Source of the DNA: Kosmotoga olearia TBF 19.5.1
GTDB taxonomy: Bacteria > Thermotogota > Thermotogae > Petrotogales > Kosmotogaceae
DNA length: 64,000 nt
Direction: 5' to 3'
NCBI RefSeq assembly: GCF_000023325.1
Contig: NC_012785.1
Location: forward strand, 1,798,001-1,862,000
The notes under the pieces are model-generated. The model worked only from the letters and a program-made list of their open reading frames with translations. It was not told the DNA's origin and ran no database searches. Made by a program: the position numbers and the translations under genes. Below, piece by piece: positions 34,050-36,704 of this stretch (its first letter is position 1; every line of letters starts with the position of its first letter).

Positions 34050-34228
34050 GAATTTTGCTCCTGAACTAAATCTTGACAACAGTGAGGTGTTATCTATCAC
34101 ATTATAATATTTTCCTATTTTCAAAGAAAAGTATATCAATGTCTCTCGCTAAAAACGAACAATACAGAAACCCTGAATCTTGAATATCAGAATAACCATT
34201 GTACCCTCTGTTTGAGGAGGGGATGGTT
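34050..34228. promoter_or_regulatory. Divergent promoter region of the regulator and the peptide/sensor operon
   Basis: ATTATAAT at 34101-34108 provides a TATAAT on each strand; TTGACA (34074-34079) lies upstream on the plus strand but at 23-bp spacing, so pairing is doubtful. A second plus-strand option is TTGAAT at 34180-34185 with a weak -10. No operator is obvious. Confidence 0.35.
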
Positions 34229-34453
34229 ATGGTGAAGAAAGGGTTGATTTCGGAACTCGTAATAGTTTTGGTAGTGTTTCTCTGGTTTCTAATGGGTTCA
34301 ACAACCGGTGTGAATATTTCTGTCAGTGATTACGACCCGCCTGATGGAGAGGTTGTGGATGGAGTTATTTTCACAACGCCGTGTATCGTGGATTACGATC
34401 CACCCGATGGGGAAGTTGTGGATGGAGTTTCAGAATTCAGGTTTGAATTGTGA
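34229..34453 (+). CDS. Small exported protein with a duplicated 13-residue peptide
   Basis: A 74-residue ORF with a basic N-terminus (MVKKGL) and a long hydrophobic core (ISELVIVLVVFLWFLMG), a signal peptide or anchor. The mature part holds DYDPPDGEVVDGV twice, separated by 8 residues (IFTTPCIV). The two 39-bp copies differ at five bases, all third codon positions and all silent, so the peptide has been kept by selection. GAGGAGGGG precedes; the ATG at 34229 has 8-nt spacing. It could be a peptide-signal precursor, a structural peptide, or the remnant of an Ig-like surface protein (PPDGEVV resembles Ig-module starts). Confidence 0.65.
   Translation: MVKKGLISELVIVLVVFLWFLMGSTTGVNISVSDYDPPDGEVVDGVIFTTPCIVDYDPPDGEVVDGVSEFRFEL
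34328..34429 (+). repeat. Two 39-bp direct copies encoding the same 13-residue peptide
   Basis: Copies at 34328-34366 and 34391-34429, 63 bp apart start to start; 34 of 39 bases agree and all five differences are synonymous. Confidence 0.9.
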
Positions 34454-34641: not shown

Positions 34642-35502
34642 ATGAATTTTTTTAGCCTGCTGTTGTTCTCAAGCTTTTTCAGTTTAGTTGCTTTGGGAGC
34701 AGTAACTGAGAGAGTTTTGGTGGTTGGTGTTGAGAATCCACCGTATTCTTTTTATGATAAATCAGGAGAACCCCAAGGAATTAGCGTAGATATGTGGAAG
34801 CTTTGGTCTGAAAAAATGGGGATAGAAGTTGAATACATAATTATGGATGATGAGCAAGCAGAACGTATGGTGAAATTAGGGACAGCTGATATCACAGATG
34901 GTCTTCTTCGTTCTGAGGAAAATGAAAAGTACTTCGACTTTTCACAACCCTATTTGAAGGAAACGGTTAACATCTACTATCATAAAATGTTATCAGGGAT
35001 AGGTTCTCCAAGGGATCTTTCTGGTTTTACAGTAGCTGTTGTTAGAAGTGAGCCTTTTTCAAATGATTTGCCCAAAGAAAACATAAATATCCAATATTAT
35101 GATTCCTGCGAAGAGGTAATAAAAGCCGTTGTGGAAGGAAAGGTGAAGATATTCATAATGAACGATATTTCAGCAAGTTATTATTTGATAAAGTACGGTA
35201 TAGAAGATGAATTCAAGAAGACCTCACCTTCCTTTTTGCAAAATTTGTATGCTGCCGTAAAAAAGGGAAAAAAAGAGCTACTCGAAACGGTTAATAAAGG
35301 CTTGAAGCAGATAACACTTGGTGAGAGAAGGGAAATAATAGAAAAGTGGAACGGTGTAGTACCATTCAATAGAGAATTGAAAAAGTATTACTGGTTAGCG
35401 GGAATTTTGGCACTTGTCTTTTTTCATATGGTAGTCTTGAAAATGATATACAGTTATTTTGAAAAAAACTCTTTAGAATTCAGAATGCTCTGGAGAAGAT
35501 GA
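34642..35502 (+). CDS. Membrane-anchored periplasmic binding domain sensor (5' half of a split HD-GYP receptor)
   Basis: A 286-residue protein: signal peptide (~1-19), one family 3 solute-binding domain (VLVVGVENPPYSFYDKSGEP, ADITDGLLRSEENEKYFDFS) and a transmembrane helix near the end (YYWLAGILALVFFHMVVLKM, ~252-271). Only ~15 residues follow the helix in this frame. At 35463-35469 lies A_AAA_AAC in phase with the codons; a -1 shift there continues with LFRIQNALEKMKTELK into the HD-GYP protein, giving one ~675-residue receptor. Without a shift it stops at 35502, overlapping the next start (ATGA). Binding domain ligand is unknown, but amino acids or peptides are typical of this fold. Confidence 0.85.
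   Translation: MNFFSLLLFSSFFSLVALGAVTERVLVVGVENPPYSFYDKSGEPQGISVDMWKLWSEKMGIEVEYIIMDDEQAERMVKLGTADITDGLLRSEENEKYFDFSQPYLKETVNIYYHKMLSGIGSPRDLSGFTVAVVRSEPFSNDLPKENINIQYYDSCEEVIKAVVEGKVKIFIMNDISASYYLIKYGIEDEFKKTSPSFLQNLYAAVKKGKKELLETVNKGLKQITLGERREIIEKWNGVVPFNRELKKYYWLAGILALVFFHMVVLKMIYSYFEKNSLEFRMLWRR
35463..35469 (+). other. Candidate -1 ribosomal frameshift / slippage site A_AAA_AAC
   Basis: The heptamer sits exactly in X_XXY_YYZ phase (codons AAA 35464-35466, AAC 35467-35469). The -1 frame is open from 35469 through the HD-GYP ATG at 35499, and its ten linking codons give a coiled-coil-like sequence; the same frame upstream is closed by TGA at 35460-35462. The run of seven A could also slip in transcription, or be a simple mutation or read error. 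Confidence 0.55.
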
Positions 35503-36668
35503 AAACAGAATTGAAGTTGAAAAACAGAGATATAGATTTTTTGTACGACCATTCCACGGAGATGACAACCAGATTATCGCACGTACTCTCGCTGTCATCA
35601 CGATTAACCGATGCGGCTTTGAAGAATGACGAAGTTTTTTTGAAAGAGTTGCTGGAAATGGCAATGAAGCTTATTCCAACTGCGGATTACGGTAGCATAT
35701 CTGTAATTGAAGACGGTAAATGGAAGTACGTTCATGCAATAGGACACGATATTGAGAAACTCAAAGCCATCGATTTAAAAGAGGAATACTTCGTTGATTT
35801 ATCAGATGGACCAACCATAATCAACGATCTGCTTCATAGAAATTATTCTAAAATGCCTGCAAAAATTGCAAGAGCGATTGAAGAAGCGACGAGAGCTTTT
35901 GAGGAAAGCATGGTCGTTAGGTTGACCGTAAATGGTAAACTCATTGGCGGATTCTCTCTGGAAATTGCAAAAGGAAGCAAAAAAAGGTTTACCGAGGAAG
36001 ATCTACAAATCTTTACCGCTCTTGCTGAACTCGCTAAAGCTTTCCAGACCATAAGACAATATATTATCATGCAGGGGAAATTCCAGAAAGAACTCGTTTT
36101 TTCGGTTGTAAGAATACTCGATTTGCACGATGCCAGTACGAGGGGGCATTCTGAAAGGGTAGCAGAACTTGCAGCGCTAACCGCGGAGATACTTGGGTTA
36201 CCCAGCAAAGATATAAAAGATGCTTATTGGGCTGGATTAGTTCATGACATAGGAAAGCTTTTGATACCGAAAGAAATTTTGGACAAACCCGCAAAACTTA
36301 CGGACGAAGAATTGGCGCTGGTCAAAAAACATCCCTTCTGGGGTTATAAAGTACTTGTCTCCTCTGAAAGGATGGAGAAATTGGCAAAATATGTTCTGTA
36401 TCACCACGAACGATGGGATGGGACAGGGTATCCTCAGGGGTTGAAAGGCGAAGAGATACCGCTGATATCGCGAATATTGGCTGTGGCAGATGCTTATGAT
36501 GCAATGAGAAGCGACAGAGCTTACAGAAAAGGGTTGACAAGGGAAGAAGCTATAAGAGAACTGCAAAAGAATGCCGGGAAACAATTCGACCCGAAATTGG
36601 TGAAAACGTTCGTAGCCATTCTTCTGGAAATTTTGAGTGAATATTCTGAAACAGGTAAGGTACAATAA
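35499..36668 (+). CDS. GAF plus HD-GYP cyclic-di-GMP phosphodiesterase (3' half of the split receptor)
   Basis: The 389-residue protein has a short coiled coil, a GAF-like domain (~residues 45-185: TADYGSISVIEDGKWKYVHA) and a C-terminal HD-GYP domain (~200-375). Metal and catalytic residues are intact: GHSERVA, VHDIGKLLIP, YHHERWDGTGYP and VADAYDAM. HD-GYP enzymes hydrolyse c-di-GMP. The ATG overlaps the sensor stop by 4 bp with only a weak GGAG before it, so translation is either coupled or reached by frameshift from the sensor. Alone, it lacks signal input except through GAF. Confidence 0.92.
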   Translation: MKTELKLKNRDIDFLYDHSTEMTTRLSHVLSLSSRLTDAALKNDEVFLKELLEMAMKLIPTADYGSISVIEDGKWKYVHAIGHDIEKLKAIDLKEEYFVDLSDGPTIINDLLHRNYSKMPAKIARAIEEATRAFEESMVVRLTVNGKLIGGFSLEIAKGSKKRFTEEDLQIFTALAELAKAFQTIRQYIIMQGKFQKELVFSVVRILDLHDASTRGHSERVAELAALTAEILGLPSKDIKDAYWAGLVHDIGKLLIPKEILDKPAKLTDEELALVKKHPFWGYKVLVSSERMEKLAKYVLYHHERWDGTGYPQGLKGEEIPLISRILAVADAYDAMRSDRAYRKGLTREEAIRELQKNAGKQFDPKLVKTFVAILLEILSEYSETGKVQ

Positions 36669-36704
36669 AACATACCACGGGAACAATTCCCGTGGCATGT
36701 TTTT
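36669..36704 (+). terminator. Bidirectional terminator between HD-GYP and enolase genes
   Basis: AACAT-x-CCACGGGAA pairs with TTCCCGTGG-x-ATGTT around a 3-nt loop, followed by a T-run; the reverse strand also ends in T residues, serving the convergent enolase gene. Confidence 0.85.

Follow-up and report, generated by a model that had tools for sequence, protein, structure and literature searches.

The adjacent open reading frames ORF1 and ORF2 of Kosmotoga olearia TBF 19.5.1 probably represent one receptor gene that was split by the loss of a single A from an A-run, a reading to which a probability of roughly 80% can be assigned. The loss itself would be either real, as a probably recent mutation of the strain, or else a consensus error. 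The main support for the one-gene reading comes from the continuity of both halves, which, together with the linker encoded in the -1 frame, match one continuous protein family more closely than expected by chance. The slippery heptamer at the junction and its phase are no more than chance.

Layout of the locus

The window (the whole stretch of 64,000 nucleotides that was analysed) lies in a genome represented by a single contig of 2,302,126 bases. The locus comprises the following features, given in window coordinates.

34642..35502, + strand: ORF1, 286 aa; signal peptide, SBP_bac_3 periplasmic domain, one transmembrane (TM) helix, SLEFRMLWRR, TGA
35460..35462, + strand: TGA shutting the -1 frame directly upstream of the A7 run
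35462..35468, + strand: A7 run; one A fewer than in a single-ORF ancestor would explain the split
35463..35469, + strand: A_AAA_AAC heptamer in -1 slippery phase
35469..35498, + strand: -1 frame linker LFRIQNALEK, preceding the ORF2 ATG; gap-free alignment with the helix that follows the TM segment in homologues
35492..35495, + strand: GGAG, the sole Shine-Dalgarno (SD)-like sequence ahead of the ORF2 ATG, at an aligned spacing of 2
35499..36668, + strand: ORF2, 389 aa from ATG; coiled-coil-like linker, GAF, HD-GYP
36675..36695, + strand: intrinsic terminator-like stem-loop 3' of ORF2, 9 pairs, 6 GC; assigned from a consensus match only

The zero-frame codons at the run are GAA (35461), AAA (35464) and AAC (35467), which places the heptamer in the X_XXY_YYZ phase. 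The segment SLEFRMLWRR corresponds to the 10 out-of-frame codons closing ORF1, and the stop codon (TGA, 35500-35502), ten codons past AAC, overlaps the ORF2 start as ATGA. Past the run, the -1 frame reads LFRIQNALEKMKTELK into ORF2. An earlier sequence-only reading of this DNA had described the coordinates, the phase of A_AAA_AAC, the closure of the -1 frame by TGA and the ten codons to the stop, and all of these check out. Upstream of the receptor (34199-34453), the window also contains a small secreted-looking ORF of 84 aa, in which a YDPPDGEVVDGV motif is repeated and which has no Pfam match.

Domain composition and conserved residues

ORF1 matches SBP_bac_3 (Pfam, E 6e-26) and contains one hydrophobic helix, and ORF2 matches HD_5/HD (Pfam, E 2e-44). 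GAF_2 in ORF2 reaches 24.2 bits, slightly under the Pfam gathering score of 28.6, but the region aligns with homologues. Fusion via the -1 frame gives a product of 675 aa, in agreement with the single receptor of ~675 residues predicted by the sequence-only reading. The order of the domains (SBP_bac_3, TM helix, linker, GAF, HD-GYP) is that of the SBP_bac_3-GAF-HD-GYP receptor family; the single continuous ORF of the family is broken here at the A7 run (35462-35468). Residues conserved in the family are retained at 5 of 7 positions in one half and at 46 of 50 in the other, inside the range of the intact homologues. As judged from sequence, the HD-GYP part of ORF2, with HD, HHExxDGxGYP and the downstream related motifs intact, fits the HD-GYP phosphodiesterase class. 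A Cas3-HD identity of the HD domain (PADLOC) was dismissed, the similarity being weak.

Within the SBP domain of ORF1 (window ~34900-34925), the position of a family-conserved Arg (E-R after the fourth strand) is occupied by Asn. In amino-acid-binding proteins the Arg of this motif touches the ligand carboxylate, so the ligand or the function of the domain may differ.

Continuity with single-ORF homologues

The fused 675-aa protein was searched against 103 Thermotogota genomes, a full-length homologue being counted from the match table as a match with query start <=30 and end >=655. Forty uninterrupted ORFs from 30 Thermotogota genomes, with up to 37% identity, cover nearly the whole fused query, and a separate check of the retrieved loci agrees. 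A split at this junction was seen in none of the homologues examined (Thermotogota, 32-37% identity for the full-length relatives); as the junction is intact in every one of them, the split constitutes a singleton. In an alignment of 24 sequences the -1 frame crosses the junction uninterrupted by gaps. It resumes after the shift with Leu, at a position where 21 homologues carry a residue and 20 of these have Leu or Ile; the zero frame would place Ser here. Taken together, the 40 single-ORF homologues and the gap-free linker alignment support the view, already put forward in the sequence-only reading, that ORF1 and ORF2 are halves of one receptor gene joined via the -1 frame.

The linker was also scored with a family profile built without the present sequence. 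The version with the -1 linker scores 717.7 bits, compared with 713.2 bits when ORF2 is preceded by the zero-frame ending. The 10 residues LFRIQNALEK beat 190 of 200 random linkers, the other 10 being equal or better. The earlier impression of a linker that looks like genuine protein in the shifted frame thus receives only moderate support. A search of genome contigs for closest relatives returned four distant HD-GYP matches only and no sister copy of the A-run. The enolase and prepilin peptidase genes lie far apart in genome G002, which precludes a simple empty-site comparison.

Base rates and simulated A losses

Base rates were taken from 400 kb of genome stretches plus the window, a sample of 422 ORFs. 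In-phase A_AAA_AAN occurs 252 times in these 422 genes, including 44 occurrences of A_AAA_AAC, and ORF1 alone contains three in-phase heptamers. Accidental losses were simulated by removing one A from each coding A7+ run in the sampled genes (n = 72). An in-phase A_AAA_AAN remains in 40 of the 72 cases, and in 31 an in-frame start codon lies close to the new stop. Across the simulated losses this stop is reached after a median of 7 codons. Hence an in-phase heptamer, a close stop and a close ATG are default outcomes of accidental A loss. Since more than half of such losses leave an in-phase slippery heptamer, finding one where a gene is split is of little evidential value in an A-rich genome. 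The exact ATGA overlap is rarer (3/72) and counts against a one-base loss, as does the fact that the compared homologues all share <=40% identity with the query.

Alternative explanations

Were ribosomes programmed to shift to the -1 frame at A_AAA_AAC, or RNA polymerase to slip on A7, both products would be intended, an output-less membrane sensor and a full receptor. In favour of this are the phase of the heptamer, the stop ten codons on, an open -1 frame whose sequence is conserved, and the use of A_AAA_AAC, a low-efficiency slippery site in E. coli, by some IS elements (PMC4066793). Even so, such programming is very unlikely. The frame transition is not kept in homologues, all full-length relatives seen being one ORF, and an in-phase heptamer ahead of the zero-frame stop is present but at the base rate of its class. 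A stem-loop near the heptamer, considered in the sequence-only reading, did not emerge: four segments downstream of it were folded at 37 C, a generous temperature for a thermophile, and none was better than shuffles (z -0.53, 0.03, 0.19 and 0.67). Nor did reading of the sequence reveal an SD-like element 6-17 nt upstream of the heptamer. Transcriptional slippage usually involves runs of nine or more A or T, and selection against it is visible at nine-nucleotide runs across a large share of bacterial genomes, depending on the organism (PMC1088944); the A7 run falls below this length. The sequence-only reading had left the choice between programmed slippage and a one-base loss from A8. The evidence favours the loss; programming lacks support, given the unique split, the base-rate heptamer, the lack of significant structure in the folded segments and the inefficient site. 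It is more doubtful still that the A7 run acts as a slippage switch, at which ribosomes or RNA polymerase would slip at a useful rate and thereby tune the coupling of sensor and phosphodiesterase. In such a switch the slippage rate might vary with temperature; the organism grows from 20 to 79 C.

A functional fission into separate, translationally coupled genes, which would encode an SBP protein of the membrane and, as a soluble enzyme, a GAF-HD-GYP phosphodiesterase, appears unlikely as well. It agrees with the undecayed state of both halves, with the frequency of ATGA overlaps in this genome (4-nt overlaps in 44 of 235 same-strand neighbours) and with the occurrence of stand-alone GAF-HD-GYP proteins of ~390 aa in other Thermotogota. 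However, the final codons of ORF1 mismatch the family, and ORF2 has a badly spaced SD: the aligned spacing of GGAG is 2, against a genomic mode of 7-9, and initiation at ORF2 is therefore probably weak. Nor was a homologous separate gene pair found in the other genomes examined, as inspection of 20 loci for SBP genes adjoining stand-alone GAF-HD-GYP genes brought up only one other frame break, an apparent one in genome G042.

Other interrupted receptor genes

The homologous gene of G042 (L106:1535-3594, reverse complement; G042:C64) loses its frame at GGGGAAAAAG, close to where GAF begins; restoring it takes a -1 shift, and the site contains no X_XXY_YYZ heptamer. A related SBP-HD-GYP gene in genome G093 (L129:1450-3328; G093:C9) has its break in an A8 run, and a +1 shift would restore it; its matches in six congeners lie in open frames of 620-626 aa. 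Position, direction and motif are different for each break, a pattern that fits scattered indels or errors.

In the K. olearia genome itself, a second, paralogous SBP_bac_3 receptor gene (L145:2176-6122; G000:C1, ~479.2-483.1 kb), with the organization SBP-PAS-GAF-GGDEF-HD-GYP, is cut by an IS of ~1.07 kb with inverted ends, 11-bp direct repeats and seven near-identical genomic copies. Real loss of a broadly similar receptor has thus occurred in the strain, so that a real mutation of the present gene is plausible too. The transposase of this IS (L145:2825-3791, minus strand) is spread over two ORFs of 126 and 211 aa that overlap and differ in frame; given its several copies, it is a better candidate for recoding in this genome than the receptor.

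A probable one-base loss and its consequences

According to the one-base-loss reading, the locus would be a single receptor gene encoding a periplasmic solute-binding domain, a TM helix, a coiled-coil linker, GAF and an HD-GYP c-di-GMP phosphodiesterase. Judging by its domains, an intact member of the family would function as a one-component receptor, in which a periplasmic ligand signal would pass via the TM helix and the coiled coil to GAF/HD-GYP and alter the breakdown of c-di-GMP inside the cell. Here a single A would be gone from the A-run just past the TM helix, so that translation would halt ten codons later and the sensor would be severed from its output. If the loss is real, ORF1 would be a membrane sensor without output, ribosomes re-initiating at the ATGA overlap might produce some free GAF-HD-GYP, and the full-length protein would arise at most in traces, through adventitious slippage. 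As the genome contains 15 HD_5 loci in all, phosphodiesterase capacity would survive the split.

The break occurs in one genome, at a homopolymer, and the homologues are intact. Singleton frame transitions validated by BLASTp have been treated as likelier to reflect sequencing errors or indels than recoding (PMC3711429). Neither half shows decay, hence any loss would be recent or not real. The absence of decay is compatible with a mutation that happened very recently, with a consensus error or with the gene still functioning, and would also be predicted by a functional split or by productive slippage. Public Illumina RNA-seq reads exist for K. olearia (SRP075860; PMC5674127). Strain DU53 shares >99% ANI with the type strain, and its draft genome comes from Ion Torrent sequencing, a platform that handles homopolymers poorly.

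The sequence feature is real and its explanation probably ordinary, a known kind of receptor gene split by the loss of one base. A mutation or a consensus error would call for a correction of the annotation, the two gene entries being one receptor, and the strain may be without one of its c-di-GMP inputs. Were slippage true, the locus would encode a c-di-GMP receptor controlled by recoding, of which, to our knowledge, there is no description.

Comparison with known systems

The single-ORF SBP_bac_3/TM/GAF/HD-GYP receptors of Thermotogota share with the fused product the domain order, the size class (~660-740 aa), the lack of a gap across the junction and the retained catalytic motifs. The present gene differs from them by the one-base A-run change that splits it, by an identity of 32-37% and by Asn in place of the SBP-motif Arg. 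CdgH of Vibrio cholerae (PMC5431781) likewise combines a periplasmic SBP-type sensor with a c-di-GMP enzyme, but its output is a diguanylate cyclase, its SBP domains are in tandem and its gene is unsplit. Genes with programmed -1 frameshifting, such as dnaX and those of the IS911/IS3 type (PMC4066793, PMC5009743), resemble the locus in the in-phase A_AAA_AAN with a stop soon after; in contrast to them, the split is unconserved here, stimulators were not detected in the segments inspected around the heptamer, and the last base is C instead of the efficient G. A further parallel is provided by frameshifted singleton genes (PMC3711429), which likewise display a BLASTp-supported transition in a homopolymer in one genome only; the only distinctions found for the present split are that its -1 phase is intact and that its two ORFs overlap as ATGA.
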